Positions 9,761 to 19,918 of a stretch of 64,000 nucleotides of DNA are shown here, piece by piece. Each line of letters opens with the position of its first letter. Within the stretch, counting starts at the first letter, position 1. A program made the translations under genes and the position numbers. The notes under the pieces are model-generated. The model saw only the letters and a list, made by a program, of their open reading frames with translations, was not told where the DNA came from and searched no databases. This stretch comes from Pseudomonadota bacterium (GTDB lineage Bacteria; Pseudomonadota; Gammaproteobacteria; Acidiferrobacterales; UBA6901), in assembly GCA_021785515.1 (NCBI GenBank), contig JAJYEX010000001.1, forward strand, positions 124,001 to 188,000, read 5' to 3'.

Positions 9761-10564
9761 CGCAGGGTTCATGATCAGTCGCACAGCTGCTGTGTGCCTA
9801 GAACCATAATCTTGCAGGTTCGCAACGAGTGTGTGGTCCCAAAATTAGCGACAATAAGCAATTCACTGCGACTCAAGACGCCCTGACGGGTCTCGCTGGA
9901 CGATAAGAGGCCAGATCGGTCAGTTTCCGGAGCCAAGTCACGTTTTTTGGAAAACTGGCCACGCTCACTCCGGCGCATTCCACCAGCCACTGTTGCTCCC
10001 AAAGCAGTTCGTGTTTCTTGGGCACATCCTGTACGGGATGACACCTAATTGACCGGCGATTGCCGGGTAGTTGTGCGGGCCGTGATCTGGCCATCTGGCC
10101 AAGACGCATCTTAACCCGCGCGACCATCCCGGCGTGGGGCAGATGGAGGGCCTCGTCGTCTGAGGGATCGAACAAAAATATCAATAATGAGTTTAAGAAC
10201 CCTGCCCGCCCGGACCAGAACTGCGCCGTCTGTCAGGCACCTCCCCACGCATCCATAATGCCGGCTGTCCCCGATAGAAAAATGTTGTCCGTACTCACCA
10301 ATCTGTAAGCGATCCGTAAGTGGCCTCTCATTATCATGGTCACCACTCATGGCATGAACCATCAAGCGCCATCGTCGGATGCGCCGGGGCGGGGGTGCCT
10401 GCGCATCGCGCGGTGTCACGACAGAGGCTGTCGCTGAGACGGGGTGCCTGCGTGCGCTCCACGACCGGATAACGGGTGCAAGGGCCTTGGGTGGCGCACG
10501 TTACACGCCACAACAGTTTCGACAAAACTGAATGATGCTTCGAAATATAAGGGGGACACACACC
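9761..10564. other. Intergenic region with no supportable gene
   Basis: About 800 bases separate tRNA-Ala from the GloVer lipoprotein gene. Overlapping minus-strand frames (9775-10184) contain a stretch reading KKHELLWEQQWLVECAG that looks protein-like but matches nothing I recognise; it could be a decayed gene fragment. The leader of the next gene contains AAGGGGG about 10 bases before its ATG. Confidence 0.5.
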
Positions 10565-12160
10565 ATGACTACCTGCAACCCATCTGACGTCCGCGCTGAG
10601 CACGTTCATCTGTCTGCCAGGATCCTGTCCGGGAGCGCCCTGGCCTTGAGCCTCGTGCTTACTGCCTGCGGGGGCGGAGGAGGAGGCGGCGGGGGTTCCT
10701 CCGCGACGAGCGGATCAAGCTCCTATCAGGTGGGCGGGACCCTCACGGGGCTGAGTAGCGGCACTTCGGTGACTTTGAAAAACGGCTCCGCCAGTCTGAC
10801 GCTTGCCGGTAATGGCGCCTTCTCCTTCCCGACCCAGGAGGCAAGCGGCAGCACCTATGACGTCACGGTCGGCACCGAACCGGCACTTCCGGAGCACTGC
10901 AGCGTGAGCCAGGGCAGTGGCACGGTCAACGGCGCCAATGTCACGAGCGTCAATGTCGCGTGCACCCAGACCATCACCGAAACAGTGCTCTACCGCTTCA
11001 TTGGCAGCCCCACAGACGGCAGTGCTCCATTCTCCGGCCTGATCGAGGACGCCTCGGGCGATCTCTTCGGGACAACAAGTTACGGTGGAGGCTCCAGCAA
11101 TTGCACCGGGGGCTGCGGTACGGTGTTTGAGCTCAAACCCACTGCGTCAGGCGGGTATGCGGAGGCGATACTCTACAGCTTCGGGGCCAACGCGACTGAC
11201 GGCATGCATCCTTTCGCTGGGCTGGTTGCGGATGCCTCGGGCAATCTCTTCGGGACGACAAATGCGGGCGGGTCCAGCAATTGCACTGGGGGCTGCGGCA
11301 CAGTGTTTGAGCTCAAACCCACCGGGTCGGGCGGGTATGCGGAGGCCGTACTCTGGCGTTTCGCGGGCCCCGGCGCAGACGGGGATGATCCCTACGGGGA
11401 TCTCATCATGGACCGCTCGGGCGATCTGTTCGGCACGACGGAACTCGGCGGTGCGTCCAGCGAGGGCATCGTGTTTGAGTTGATCCCCAACGGCAACAAC
11501 TATGTCGAGACTGCGCTCTATAGTTTCGGGAGCAATGGCGCCAATGACGCCGCGTATCCTTATGCCGGCCTGATCGAGGACTCCTCGGGCGATCTGTTCG
11601 GCACGACGGAATATGGCGGTTCCGGCGGCCATGGCGCCGTCTTCGAGCTCACGCCCGGTAGCTTAGGCTATCAGGAATCGGTGCTCTACAGTTTCAAGGG
11701 TGGCACCACAGACGGCTCTGCTCCGTACGCCGGTCTCATCGAAGACAGCTTAGGCAATTTGTTCGGCACGACGAGTGCTGGCGGCTCCAGCGCAAGCGGC
11801 ACCGTGTTCGAGCTGAAACCCAACGGGTCTGGGCCGTATACCGAAACAGTGCTTCACAATTTCACTGGGGGCACTGCCGGCGATGGCGTTCCTTACGCCG
11901 GCCTGATCGAGGACTCTTCAGGCGACCTTTTTGGGACGACAAACGGTGGTCTCGCCGGCAATGGCACAGTGTTCGAACTGACGCCAGGCGGCACCGGCTA
12001 CACCGAGACCGTGCTCCACAGCTTCGCGAACAATGGCGTCGACGGCAGAAGTCCTTATTACGGTAGTCTACTCCAGGATGCCTCGGGCGACCTGTTTGGA
12101 ACGACGTGGTTAGGCGGCTCCACCAGCAGCAATGCGGGCACGGTGTTCGAGATCCAGTGA
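10565..12160 (+). CDS. GloVer-repeat lipoprotein
   Basis: The product is a predicted outer-membrane or cell-surface lipoprotein of 531 residues. A signal peptide ends in a lipobox LTAC, followed by a Gly run. A short beta domain comes next (about residues 35-130, with VGGTLTGLSSGTSVTLKNG), then seven tandem repeats of about 50-65 residues, each with (D/N)LFGTT and GTVFEL and Y.E..LYSF. This is the choice-of-anchor tandem repeat (GloVer, TIGR03803) pattern. Function is unknown; such repeats probably form a beta-propeller-like fold, which is inference. The ATG at 10565 was preferred to one at 10532 because it gives a proper signal peptide with an AG-rich site upstream. Confidence 0.85.
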   Translation: MTTCNPSDVRAEHVHLSARILSGSALALSLVLTACGGGGGGGGGSSATSGSSSYQVGGTLTGLSSGTSVTLKNGSASLTLAGNGAFSFPTQEASGSTYDVTVGTEPALPEHCSVSQGSGTVNGANVTSVNVACTQTITETVLYRFIGSPTDGSAPFSGLIEDASGDLFGTTSYGGGSSNCTGGCGTVFELKPTASGGYAEAILYSFGANATDGMHPFAGLVADASGNLFGTTNAGGSSNCTGGCGTVFELKPTGSGGYAEAVLWRFAGPGADGDDPYGDLIMDRSGDLFGTTELGGASSEGIVFELIPNGNNYVETALYSFGSNGANDAAYPYAGLIEDSSGDLFGTTEYGGSGGHGAVFELTPGSLGYQESVLYSFKGGTTDGSAPYAGLIEDSLGNLFGTTSAGGSSASGTVFELKPNGSGPYTETVLHNFTGGTAGDGVPYAGLIEDSSGDLFGTTNGGLAGNGTVFELTPGGTGYTETVLHSFANNGVDGRSPYYGSLLQDASGDLFGTTWLGGSTSSNAGTVFEIQ

Positions 12161-12335
12161 TCTGTTTGCCCGAGTGGGAGTGCTGCCCTGCCGAAGCGCT
12201 ATAACGCATGAGGCGGTTATGAACGGCCTGGATCGGGCAGTAATTTTCGTCACGGGATGGTTCCGTTCGTGTTCATTCTCATTGGGAAAAAAGATGCAGA
12301 AAAGTAAGGCGACGATTTAAAACAAGGAGCAGGTT

Positions 12336-12953
12336 ATGACGGAAGAAAAAGGATTTGGCGAACTTTTGGACGATTCCCCCTTGGCCACGAACGAGGGTAC
12401 GGTAACGTTGGTCGGCGCCTTACAACGTTCCCGCGAGTCAGGCAAATTCGTGCTCTCGCTGGGTAACGGACAGAACGTGACGCTCGATGTCGCGGCCGTC
12501 AGGGGGCATAAGGTTCTCGCCGGCATGGCCGGACAGCGCCTGGTGCAGGTCGAGCTTGATCAGAACAAGCTTCCAAACGACTTTCCGGGAATGTCTGCTA
12601 CGGCTTTCACCAGCCCGGAAGCCGACTATGGTGTTCGTCCCAAATTCCCACCGGGAGACTTGCCGCCCGTTGGCACGATAATGGAACACCTTCCCTCGGC
12701 CGGCGGTGATCCGTACTTCGGCGCGGGATTTCCCGCCGCAGGCGTGCCCGTACCCTTCGTGCTGGCGACACCGCATCATGTGCCCACGGAAACCGCGTAC
12801 CGCCTCTTCTCCCGCGGTCAATATCCGAGCATACCATGGTGGTCTGAACACATTAAGAGCGTCCCGGAACTGGATTACAATCGCAAGGTCGCCACGGATC
12901 CGTCTCTCGATATCCAGGAAGGCGGAACCATGTTGTATTACGACTACGTCTGA
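12336..12953 (+). CDS. Unrecognised 205-residue protein, candidate substrate of the adjacent ATP-grasp ligase
   Basis: I do not recognise a family. A strong ribosome site (AAGGAG, about 8 bases before ATG) suggests high expression. The acidic N-terminus (MTEEKGFGELLDDSPLATNEG) leads into a beta-rich stretch (residues 21-80, EGTVTLVGAL and FVLSLGNGQNVTLDV). A Pro/Gly-rich middle follows (100-140), then a C-terminal part (141-205) rich in Thr, Ser, Lys, Asp, Glu and aromatics, ending MLYYDYV. There is no signal peptide. The ATP-grasp gene follows after 61 bases. Position, strong expression signal and the Ser/Thr/Lys plus Asp/Glu-rich tail would suit a graspetide-type precursor, but it is much longer than microviridin precursors. 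The function is a proposal only. Confidence 0.8.
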   Translation: MTEEKGFGELLDDSPLATNEGTVTLVGALQRSRESGKFVLSLGNGQNVTLDVAAVRGHKVLAGMAGQRLVQVELDQNKLPNDFPGMSATAFTSPEADYGVRPKFPPGDLPPVGTIMEHLPSAGGDPYFGAGFPAAGVPVPFVLATPHHVPTETAYRLFSRGQYPSIPWWSEHIKSVPELDYNRKVATDPSLDIQEGGTMLYYDYV

Positions 12954-12997
12954 GGTCCCGCGGCGTCCGGCGGCCGCGGTAGCCTTCTTTGTTGAAC

Positions 12998-13010
12998 GTC
13001 GAGATTCGAC
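12998..13010 (+). promoter_or_regulatory. Small hairpin before the ATP-grasp start
   Basis: GTCGA-GAT-TCGAC forms a five-base stem with a three-base loop, ending four bases before the ATG at 13015. It covers the place where a ribosome site would be; none is otherwise visible. It may lower or regulate translation of the ligase relative to the upstream protein. Confidence 0.3.
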
Positions 13011-13014
13011 AATC

Positions 13015-13974
13015 ATGATTGTCATGATCGTTTCTACGCCGGGCGACGTGCATGCACAGGCCGTCATGGACGCTTTATCGGATAGCGGGGTCGGGATCGA
13101 ATTGCTCGACCTGTCTGAATTCCCGACAAGGATCTCGCTTTCCATGGAGTTCGAAAACAGCAAACGCCGGTTCTGCCTGCGCCGGACTGATTGTGCAAAG
13201 CTGGACCTCTCGACCATATCGGCGGCCTGGTGGCGCAGGCCGCCGCCTTTCAGAGTTTCTGCCGCCCTCACCGAGACCGCGTATCGCAGATTTGCGTTAT
13301 CCGAGGCCGCGACGGCCTTCGCGGGACTCTACCAATCGATGGATGCCTTTTGGGTGAACGATCCGCGCCGAGACGCCGCCGCACAGCACAAACCCTGGCA
13401 GCTTGCGCTGGCGCAGCAAATAGGGCTCGAGATCCCCGTAACGCTCATGACCAGCGACCCTGAGGAGGCGCACGACTTCTGGATGAGATTCAAGGATTGC
13501 GTCATTTACAAACCATTCCTTTCTCTCCCAGAGGCGTGGAGAGAAACGAGACGTCTGCGTGCGGAAGAAATTTCGCTCTCCGAGTCGGTGAGAACGGCCC
13601 CGGTCATCTTTCAGCGATACGTAGATGCGATCGCGGACGTCCGCGCGACCATCGTCGGCGACGAAATATTCGCGGCCTCTACCGACGTCCGGAAAGGCGA
13701 ATATCCGACGGATGTGCGGTTTAATCCCGATGCCCGGTTTGAATCCCATCTGTTGCCTGCAGACGTGCAAGACGCGCTGCGCGCGATGATGCGCCGCATG
13801 GGGCTGGAGTACGGAGCGGTCGATCTGCGTCTTACACCGGAAGGCAAGTATGTGTTTCTTGAAATCAATCCAGCGGGGCAATTTTTGTGGATCGAGATAG
13901 CGACAGGTCAGAAGATCGCATCGGCTCTTGCGGCTCATCTTGTGAACGGCGCGAAGACGCGCGGTGGAACCTAG
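13015..13974 (+). CDS. MvdC/MvdD-like ATP-grasp ligase (graspetide maturase family)
   Basis: The product is a 319-residue ATP-grasp enzyme. Family members form ester or amide bonds between Ser/Thr/Lys and Asp/Glu side chains of a ribosomal precursor, using ATP to make an acyl phosphate. Visible motifs are AWWRRPPPF (71-79, like the WxRRP motif), NDPRRDAAAQHKPWQLALAQ (115-134), VIYKPF (163-168, ATP-binding Lys), and a C-terminal stretch at 263-294 with GLEYGAVDLRL and FLEINPAGQFLWIE, the metal-binding region typical of MvdC/MvdD. Length fits (about 320). The ATG at 13024 is an alternative start. The gene is downstream of the unrecognised 205-residue protein and probably co-transcribed. A RimK-like peptide ligase is the main alternative. 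Confidence 0.85.
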   Translation: MIVMIVSTPGDVHAQAVMDALSDSGVGIELLDLSEFPTRISLSMEFENSKRRFCLRRTDCAKLDLSTISAAWWRRPPPFRVSAALTETAYRRFALSEAATAFAGLYQSMDAFWVNDPRRDAAAQHKPWQLALAQQIGLEIPVTLMTSDPEEAHDFWMRFKDCVIYKPFLSLPEAWRETRRLRAEEISLSESVRTAPVIFQRYVDAIADVRATIVGDEIFAASTDVRKGEYPTDVRFNPDARFESHLLPADVQDALRAMMRRMGLEYGAVDLRLTPEGKYVFLEINPAGQFLWIEIATGQKIASALAAHLVNGAKTRGGT

Positions 13975-16873: not shown

Positions 16874-17179
16874 TTACGCAGCGTGGCGCTGCACACGTTT
16901 GTCGACCTCATCGCCAATGGTGCGTTGCGCAATACGCAGGTCGTATTCCGCTTGCAAGCCCATCCAGGTCTGTGGCGAGATGCCGAAGTACTTCCCAAGC
17001 CGTAGCGCCGTGTCCGCCGTGATGGCGCGCTTGCCATTGACGATGGCGCTGATTCGGCCTGGCGGCACGACAATGTCACGGGCAAGCCGATTGATGCTCA
17101 CACCCATCGGTTTCATGAATTCTTCCAACAGTATTTCGCCAGGGTGAATCGGTTCAAGACGCTTGTGCTTGGCGGCCAT
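16874..17179 (-). CDS. higA: HigA-family antitoxin
   Basis: The product is a 101-residue XRE-family DNA-binding antitoxin that would neutralise the adjacent HigB RNase and repress the operon. It opens with the family signature IHPGEILLEEFMKPMG. A helix-turn-helix follows (INRLARDIVVPPGRISAIVNGKRAITADTALRL, about residues 29-62), then the FGISPQTWMGLQ.EYDLRIA stretch that defines HigA. It follows higB by eight bases, and toxin-first order is typical of higBA. It is cargo of the first island module. Confidence 0.93.
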   Translation of the reverse strand: MAAKHKRLEPIHPGEILLEEFMKPMGVSINRLARDIVVPPGRISAIVNGKRAITADTALRLGKYFGISPQTWMGLQAEYDLRIAQRTIGDEVDKRVQRHAA

Positions 17180-17187
17180 ATCTCACC

Positions 17188-17466
17188 TCAGTGATAGTCC
17201 ACAATTTCAACATCAAAGGCATCACCGTCCTTCCAGCGAAAACAGATTCGCCATTGGTCGTTGATGCGGATACTGTGCTGCCCTTTGCGCGCGCCCTTCA
17301 AGGCCTCCAGCCGGTTTCCAGGCGGAACTCTCAATTCGTCAAGGCGCTGTGCCTGGTGCAGGTACAGGAGCTTACGGCGGGCGACCCGCTCGATGGCCCG
17401 GAACCGTGGCACGTCCTGGTCCTTGAATAGGGCTTCGGTCCTAGGGTCACGGAAAAAGCGGATCAT
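17188..17466 (-). CDS. higB: HigB-family toxin (RelE/ParE superfamily)
   Basis: HigB is a ribosome-dependent mRNA endoribonuclease. The product is 92 residues with the family pattern: MIRFFRDPRTEALF near the N-terminus, RKLLYLHQAQRLDELRVPPGNRLEALKGARKGQHSIRINDQWRICFRW in the middle and DVEIVDYH at the C-terminus. The conserved H-x-I-R-I-N-D-Q-W-R-I-C-F segment and C-terminal YH are present, so it should be active. It is co-transcribed with higA and has a palindromic operator upstream. Confidence 0.93.
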   Translation of the reverse strand: MIRFFRDPRTEALFKDQDVPRFRAIERVARRKLLYLHQAQRLDELRVPPGNRLEALKGARKGQHSIRINDQWRICFRWKDGDAFDVEIVDYH

Positions 17467-18807: not shown

Positions 18808-19918
18808 CTGATCCGTTCACCAAATAGTGCGTAGTATGTTATCATTTCAGGCATGCAAAAACGAAGCGATGCCAGGAAATTGGGGTCATCGGCGCTGCAA
18901 TTGCTGCGCCGGCAGGTAGTGCGCTCGGTGCGTGCCGGGATGACGCAAACGCAAGCCGCGCTCACATTCGGTGCGAGCCTGCGGGTGGTGAGCAAGTGGA
19001 TGCGCCTGGACCGCGAGGGCGGGCTGCGGGCCCTCGCGCTCAAGCGCCGGGGACGCCGTGCGGGAGCGGGGCGCCTCGGCACCATGCAGGCGCGGCGCAT
19101 TCGCCAGATGATCATCGATGCGATGCCCGATCAACTGAAGCTGCCGTTTTATCTCTGGACGCGTGCCGCCGTGGCGAGCTTGATTGCCCGCGAATACGGC
19201 ATTGAGGTATCGCTTGTGACCGTCGGGCGCTACCTCAAGGCCTGGGGCATGAGCCCGCAAAGACCGGTGGCGCGTGCCTACGAGCGCAACGATCGAGCGA
19301 TCGGGCACTGGCTGAAGCACGAGTACCCCGCGCTTGCCCGGCAGGCTAAGCGCGAAAAGGCCGAGATTTACTGGGGCGATGAGATGGGCCTGAGAAGTGA
19401 TCACGTCACCGGGACGAGCTTCGCCCCGGTGGGCGAAACCCCCGTGATCCGGGCTACTGGACAGCGCTTTGGCTGCAACATGATCTCGGCAATCACCAAC
19501 AAAGGGGCGCTTTCCTTCATGGTGTTTCAGGGCAAGTTCGAAGCAGCCGTGTTCGTGGAGTTCATGGGACGGCTGCTCAAACAGTTCACCGGGCGGATCT
19601 ATCTCATCGTTGATGGGCATCCGGTACACCGATCCGGCCAGGCCAAGCGCTTTGCGCAGACGCACAAAAGCCGACTGCGACTGATTCGAATGCCAGGCTA
19701 TTGTCCGGAGCTTAATCCGGATGAGTTGCTCAACCAGGACGTGAAAACCAATGCCGTGGGCAAAAGCCGACCGACGAACCGCGGCGAACTCATGAGCACC
19801 GTGCGCCGGCACTTGCACCGTCGCCAGAAACAACCCCAGATCATCCGTAATCTCTTTTGCGAGGAACATGTCCGCTATGCTGCTCAATAAAGTACGCACT
19901 ATTTGGTGGTCGGCTCAG
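18808..19918. mobile_element. IS630-family insertion sequence, complete
   Basis: The element is 1111 bases with 26-base terminal inverted repeats that differ at three positions. Both contain ACCAAATAGTGCGTA near the inner side and start CTGA at the tip. It is flanked by TA on each side (18806-18807, 19919-19920), the target duplication expected for IS630/Tc1-mariner. One intact transposase gene fills it. It sits between the arm-like repeats after the att copy at 18681 and an integrase remnant. Confidence 0.9.
18853..19890 (+). CDS. IS630-family transposase
   Basis: A 345-residue DDE transposase of the IS630/Tc1-mariner type. The N-terminal helix-turn-helix (GMTQTQAALTFGASLRVVSKWMR, about 29-51) precedes a winged-helix region (LPFYLWTRAAVASLIAREYGIEVS). 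The catalytic core has D176 in YWGDEMGLRSDH, D254 in LIVDGHPVH and E291 in CPELNPDELLNQD. All three acidic residues are present and no frameshift is seen, so it could be active. It sits inside its own inverted repeats. Confidence 0.95.
   Translation: MQKRSDARKLGSSALQLLRRQVVRSVRAGMTQTQAALTFGASLRVVSKWMRLDREGGLRALALKRRGRRAGAGRLGTMQARRIRQMIIDAMPDQLKLPFYLWTRAAVASLIAREYGIEVSLVTVGRYLKAWGMSPQRPVARAYERNDRAIGHWLKHEYPALARQAKREKAEIYWGDEMGLRSDHVTGTSFAPVGETPVIRATGQRFGCNMISAITNKGALSFMVFQGKFEAAVFVEFMGRLLKQFTGRIYLIVDGHPVHRSGQAKRFAQTHKSRLRLIRMPGYCPELNPDELLNQDVKTNAVGKSRPTNRGELMSTVRRHLHRRQKQPQIIRNLFCEEHVRYAAQ

Follow-up and report, generated by a model that had tools for sequence, protein, structure and literature searches.

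A 205-residue protein with a predicted disordered tail as the probable substrate of an MvdC/MvdD-type ATP-grasp ligase in a gammaproteobacterial genome

Background

What does an ATP-grasp ligase of the graspetide type act on when the only gene beside it encodes a protein of 205 residues, predicted to be a small folded domain followed by a long tail? We address this question for two adjacent genes in a stretch of 64,000 nucleotides, hereafter the window (contig JAJYEX010000001.1, positions 124,001 to 188,000), from a member of the Acidiferrobacterales. We propose that the two genes probably form a graspetide-type modification pair, in which the 205-residue protein is the substrate of the ligase, a large precursor whose tail would be stapled between residues i and i+5. 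The observations on which this proposal is built are the pairing of the two genes, a motif shared across the upstream proteins, the spacing of donor and acceptor residues, the disorder prediction and the ligase tree.

Results

The gene pair and its surroundings

The upstream gene (12336-12953 on the forward strand, stop codon included) is an open reading frame for the 205-residue candidate precursor, homologs of which lie directly upstream of related ligases at loci L019-L022 and L030 of the locus set described below. A Shine-Dalgarno-like AAGGAG, read directly from the sequence (12324-12329, forward strand), stands 6 nt 5' of its ATG. After a gap of 61 nt follows the ATG of a 319-residue ligase (13015-13974, forward strand, stop codon included). 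The ligase reading frame has been open since 12706, but the protein starts at the ATG at 13015 (or 13024) and not at 12706, and the start at 13015 agrees with homologs that open with M[TS]VLI.SS. The first-pass annotation had described a strongly initiated 205-residue protein followed by an MvdC/MvdD-type ligase, and the open reading frame, the AAGGAG and the Pfam, NCBIfam and PDB comparisons given below all confirm that description. A perfect 16-bp palindrome, GACAATCATGATTGTC, at 13008-13023 overlaps the ligase start codon at 13015; it could serve as an operator or form a hairpin at the start codon.

No short canonical precursor, C39 peptidase or transporter, protease or acetyltransferase adjoins the pair in the window, as had already been noted for the transporter, protease and acetyltransferase, nor does any export or maturation gene adjoin it. 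The idea of a hidden short precursor beside the pair was rejected after all ORFs of at least 20 residues had been checked. Just upstream on the same strand (10532-12160) lies a gene whose lipoprotein-like product has a poly-Gly stretch and seven GloVer (TIGR03803) repeats; at the homologous loci that were inspected, it was not seen next to the pair. On the other side of the pair, the window holds a type II toxin-antitoxin pair, a HigB-like toxin (PF05015) with an HTH antitoxin (16874-17466, reverse strand), and an IS630-like DDE_3/HTH transposase (18853-19890, forward strand), the latter about 5 kb downstream.

The ligase

In Pfam, the ligase matches the MvdD pre-ATP-grasp domain (PF21068, 49.9 bits, cut-off 27) and RimK (24.0 bits, cut-off 21). 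Its NCBIfam scores are 261.2 bits for TIGR04187, the GRASP_SAV_5884 subfamily (1.2e-77), which is under the curated cut-off of 350, 178.9 bits for the MvdD equivalog TIGR04184 (1.4e-52), under the cut-off of 475, and 168.9 bits for the MvdC equivalog TIGR04185 (1.4e-49), under the cut-off of 425. The best PDB relative is 9bou (1e-38), the nearest solved relatives are graspetide ligases of the MdnB/CdnC type (at 1e-29 or better), and 5/5 aligned solved members share D270, E283 and N285, the ATP-grasp metal-ligand positions. The window ligase thus carries the MvdC/MvdD-type pre-ATP-grasp domain that is asked of a graspetide ligase. A search of viral contigs with the ligase gave zero matches. One Pseudomonadota genome holds two MvdC/D-like ligases in tandem (L008 and L016, G309:C3:93341-95301).

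The 205-residue protein and its homologs

The 205-residue protein has no match in Pfam, NCBIfam or the PDB. Its N-terminal region (residues 1-80; 12336-12575, forward strand) is a small beta domain common to eight ligase-adjacent proteins according to AlphaFold and an N-domain HMM; with six sequences as input, AlphaFold placed five strands in residues 21-80 at a pLDDT of about 76-86. Residues 83-205 (12582-12950, forward strand), with a pLDDT mostly below 50, form a predicted disordered tail. A Foldseek comparison of the model with the PDB returned nothing at E<=0.001 and weak OB/IF-1-like matches only, a profile search gave nothing convincing against the PDB, and Pfam found nothing significant in six small-family homologs.

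Single-sequence searches with the 205-residue protein found nothing in plasmids, viral contigs, 194 relatives and the genome contigs; three weak matches among 398 genomes of the phylum appear to be due to chance, the best of them overlapping an RNase H-like ORF on the opposite strand. A plasmid search with the ligase, by comparison, led to a 45% identical ligase in Burkholderia stagnalis, where the gene overlapping the ligase start encodes a 522-residue M43 peptidase (PF05572) with Thr/Asp repeats and then APFVLSTPHHSMAW, which corresponds to VPFVLATPHHVPTE of the window protein. Three aligned ligases, used to scan 84,980 species genomes, yielded 80 loci. Among these, the upstream proteins of the closest ligases are 170-245 residues long, share the N-terminal domain and show 31-41% identity overall; they come from Silvibacterium (L019), two Bryobacterales (L020, L022), Pararobbsia (L021) and Caballeronia (L030), and the N-domain HMM adds the upstream proteins of L023 (Krumholzibacteriota) and L024 (Nitrosomonas). 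The domain therefore occurs in seven other proteins, from Acidobacteriota, Burkholderiales, Krumholzibacteriota and Nitrosomonas, and all eight including that of the window lie directly upstream of a related ligase. Profile A2 of the small family, a search independent of the ligase as bait, brought up no additional member among 397 other Pseudomonadota genomes, 268 of the Pararobbsia family and 269 of the Silvibacterium class (about 930 in total), and plasmid searches with the small proteins of L019 and L021 gave zero matches. In the ligase tree, the six small-domain ligases group together as a single clade (support 99/94). The pair occurs sporadically and is probably moving horizontally, since none of the four other sampled species of the window genus has a homolog of the 205-residue protein.

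The first-pass annotation had suggested checking whether homologs always neighbour this ligase type, and had named two outcomes that would speak against its proposal: homologs found mainly away from the ligase and with an unrelated conserved function, and a tail lacking conserved donors and acceptors. The eight N-domain proteins and the survey of the other genomes answer the former in favour of the pairing. Because the homologs always adjoin the ligase and the tail has significantly spaced pairs, as detailed below, neither outcome was seen.

The shared motif and the spacing of donors and acceptors

The sole invariant tail residues in the small family are P140 and F141, which open the motif PFVLATPHH (residues 140-148; 12753-12779, forward strand), a clade-wide motif and a candidate ligase recognition element. 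Graspetide leaders are expected to show Phhx(1,2)h near the N-terminus, in the first 30 or so residues, with the core behind; the N-terminus of the 205-residue protein is a folded domain, and residues 140-148 are its only candidate for such a motif. GG occurs at residues 123-124 and 195-196, where it is not conserved, and no C39 peptidase is encoded nearby.

Across the six small-family tails, Lys, Ser or Thr is followed by Asp at +5 in 26 cases against 6.7 expected (0/500 shuffles), with a weaker signal at +4, and the N-domains of the same six proteins show no such spacing signal. When no donors were preset, position -5 before Asp was enriched in Lys (7.9x), Thr (3.2x) and Ser (2.1x), and position -3 in Pro (3.7x). 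In the wider clade, where distinct segments were counted once because tandem duplication inflates the raw counts, +5 was the sole enriched offset (285 vs 140). The window tail by itself holds five +5 pairs (p=0.001), all candidate crosslink units on the forward strand: T92-D97 (TSPEAD, 12609-12626), K103-D108 (KFPPGD, 12642-12659; compare KHPIQD in L019 and KPPFVD in L021), S175-D180 (SVPELD, 12858-12875; compare SVPVFD in L021), T187-D192 (TDPSLD, 12894-12911) and T198-D203 (TMLYYD, 12927-12944; compare TIAWWD in L021 and TVHFFD in L023). All except the last have the exact form [KST]xPxxD, four occurrences vs 0.18 expected (0/20,000 shuffles) of a form that was itself derived from six sequences, the window among them. 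The units are scattered along the tail, which has no tandem repeat. This unit is not universal, since the close homologs L020 and L022 have one or two +5 pairs only and zero [KST]xPxxD.

An alignment of the C-terminal tails had also been suggested at first pass; it shows an invariant P140 and F141, and the six tails together are enriched in +5 pairs, of which L020 and L022 have few. Residues 141-205 had been singled out as rich in donors and acceptors. Significantly spaced Lys/Ser/Thr-Asp pairs do occur there, but they are not confined to that region, two of them lying at 92-108; candidate core units stand on both sides of PFVLATPHH, and residues 140-148 are more likely the recognition motif. 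By residue spacing, the protein next to the window ligase shows what is expected of a graspetide precursor, namely spaced donors (Lys/Ser/Thr) and acceptors (Asp/Glu).

The wider ligase clade

The ligases of the small-domain group branch from within a larger clade, in which the gene upstream of the ligase encodes in most cases a peptidase. These peptidases come from unrelated families and by their active-site patterns are astacins (31), M43 peptidases (7), trypsin-like peptidases (7) and subtilases (4), with examples confirmed by Pfam; inspected by eye, their N-termini lack an obvious signal peptide. From the enzyme domain to the C-terminus, the tails in this clade consist of repeats (TLKFRDD, KEVRKDPIRD, KHPIQDK, PTIATAD), PF[VI]L[AS]TPHH or a looser form of it and, usually, a helical segment. 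The loose motif P[FL]xhx was present in the last 125 residues of 57 of the 59 upstream proteins vs 1 of 96 control windows, the 59 being the clade rows with a readable upstream protein, picked after the tree was seen; of the remaining two, L024 has it at -138 and L080 in a shifted frame. The loci had been picked by ligase similarity and not by the motif, with all three bait ligases already known to have the motif or a variant, and the count leaves out L054 (contig end), L068 (no upstream ORF) and the Phyllobacterium-type pair L018/L077. The ligases of this last pair, from Phyllobacterium/Mesorhizobium (L018 5482-5979, L077 3272-3979), are preceded by a different protein, which contains PYAILTISH and may represent a third kind of cargo.

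At L026 (2406-3851), the upstream protein is a tyrosinase (PF00264) with TLKF-type repeats and PFVLATPHH, so that cargo with such a tail extends beyond peptidases. In Streptomyces endophytica (L080 2776-4004), the astacin-type upstream gene is split over two frames, with the motif in the second, which we attribute to a frameshift or a sequencing error. A YscW-family ORF lies directly 3' of the ligase at two astacin-type Pseudomonadota loci, L052 (4911-5330; 23.0 bits in Pfam, cut-off 22.6) and L060 (3441-3857; a weak score). By sequence, the window pair belongs to a small-domain branch within a widespread ligase clade and is not an isolated oddity.

Discussion

Proposed function

In the pair that we propose, the ligase would recognise PFVLATPHH at residues 140-148 of the 205-residue protein, much as microviridin ligases bind PFFARFL, and would phosphorylate Asp side chains in the disordered tail, whereupon the Lys, Thr or Ser at position -5 would attack the activated Asp and close a six-residue lactam or lactone ring. 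Up to five such staples could form, at T92-D97, K103-D108, S175-D180, T187-D192 and T198-D203, each with a loss of 18 Da. The folded N-terminal beta domain would be the cargo, as a peptidase or a tyrosinase would be in the sister systems, and the modified tail would presumably be the functional product. The first-pass annotation had offered a choice between a large-precursor graspetide and a crosslinked folded protein; the long protein does appear to be the likely substrate, but the predicted target is a disordered tail attached to a folded domain. The recognition motif would stand after or among the cores, unlike in the characterised natural graspetides, and this reversed order appears to be a property of the clade, since RPWG precedes the core in the outgroup.

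A broader reading, which we put forward tentatively and at somewhat short of an even chance, is that of a tail-stapling system, in which the ATP-grasp ligase reads a C-terminal PFxLATPHH tag and staples the disordered tails of whole proteins between i and i+5, the staples persisting in the mature protein. As part of the same reading, the cargo would comprise astacin, M43, subtilisin-like and trypsin-like peptidases, a tyrosinase and small beta domains, and the system would represent natural C-terminal recognition and protein modification and not small-peptide production. Two uses can be envisaged, a permanent protease-resistant stapled tail or the release of small inhibitors. The permanent tail fits the diversity of the cargo better, because self-excision would be impossible both for the small domain and for the tyrosinase.

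Alternative explanations

The second of these uses, in which the chemistry is the same and proteolysis frees the stapled segments as small protease-inhibitor graspetides, with the fused peptidase doing the cutting at the sister loci, has perhaps a modest chance of being correct. According to a 2022 survey, every graspetide characterised up to then inhibits proteases (PMC8939145), and fused peptidases are common in the clade; however, a peptidase is missing from the small-domain systems, one of the cargo proteins is a tyrosinase, and a conserved cleavage motif was not found. Another conceivable role for the 205-residue protein is that of a partner or adaptor for the ligase, comparable to MirC in the rosaritide system, with the true precursor elsewhere in the genome. 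Partner-dependent graspetide synthetases do exist (PMC13097080), and an adaptor would suit both the folded beta domain and the few donor/acceptor pairs of some homologs. We consider this unlikely given that the neighbour at sister loci is an enzyme with long Lys/Thr/Asp repeats, that over 59 loci the upstream gene is the common neighbour and has both motif and repeats, and that the separate short precursor expected of a partner-protein graspetide is matched by no ORF found nearby or conserved near the ligase.

The two remaining explanations dispense with the rings. If the Asp-rich repeats were Ca2+-binding or spacer repeats and the ligase acted elsewhere, there would be little reason for position -5 to be specifically Lys, Thr or Ser, or for the only universal gene neighbour to be a ligase family whose known members join these very residues; the units of the window tail, moreover, are scattered and form no tandem array. 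We regard this explanation as improbable, even though tandem Asp-rich repeats do stand behind peptidases in several phyla, as they do in secreted RTX proteins. Equally, the RimK-like ATP-grasp domain (24.0 bits against a cut-off of 21) would be compatible with a ligase that adds free amino acids such as Glu to the tail without ring closure, but over its full length the protein resembles graspetide synthetases that have the MvdD pre-ATP-grasp domain, and a fixed +5 spacing of donor and acceptor is unexpected for terminal or side-chain addition, making this account improbable as well. The graspetide-type pair, with the 205-residue protein as substrate, remains the reading that we prefer.

Comparison with known systems

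The window ligase resembles the microviridin synthetases MvdC/MvdD (MdnB, MdnC, CdnC) in its fold, its pre-ATP-grasp domain and its conserved metal ligands. Microviridin precursors, however, are short, with a PFFARFL leader at the N-terminus and a single compact core, whereas the window protein has 205 residues and its motif at 140-148. The nearest large outgroup in the ligase tree consists of TgmA/TgmB and fuscimiditide (ThfA/ThfB), and ThfA has Thr-Asp esters; the Tgm/Thf precursors differ in being about 75-125 residues long, with a leader RPWG...RLAPYP before a C-terminal Thr/Asp core, and are often accompanied by a methyltransferase. When the ThfA leader was moved to the C-terminus by engineering, ThfB was still active, at about half speed (PMC13003496). 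If our reading is true, the clade provides a natural C-terminal recognition sequence for graspetide ligases, enzymes with stapled tails, and ligases acting on whole-protein tails that would be useful for protein cyclisation.

The precursor had been thought far longer than known ones, a claim that does not hold. Corallotide (graspetide group 15) has a precursor of about 22 kDa with K-D (i+4) lactams and a TIGR04187 enzyme (PMC13097080, Carter et al.), and long repeat precursors are known in graspetide groups 34 and 35 (PMC13097080), so that precursor size alone is not new. The window pair resembles corallotide CorA/CorB, whose precursor has a folded N-terminal part and repeated Lys-Asp lactam units and whose synthetase is assigned to TIGR04187 (PMC13097080). 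Corallotide differs in its K-D spacing of i+4 (KxxxD), the CorC hydroxylation and a beta-lactamase gene, whereas the window shows i+5, Thr and Ser besides Lys, and two genes only.

Among the openly licensed papers searched, none describes a peptidase or tyrosinase acting as a graspetide precursor or a peptidase-graspetide fusion, which is not proof of novelty. Makarova et al. (2022) described ATP-grasp branches 7 and 8, which have no predicted precursor and hold peptidases of several unrelated families (PMC8939145); they proposed that these peptidases cut other proteins and found branch 7 often with a YscW homolog (PMC8939145). Compared by locus content, the wider clade is like these branches, being rich in unrelated peptidases and having YscW beside L052, and the window's own branch is unlike them in having neither a peptidase nor a YscW homolog. 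The branch 7/8 peptidases may themselves be the precursors; those of the wider clade bear both candidate cores and motif. The clade thus suggests what the precursor-less ATP-grasp branches act on, namely the peptidases and, in the branch of the window, the small-domain protein.
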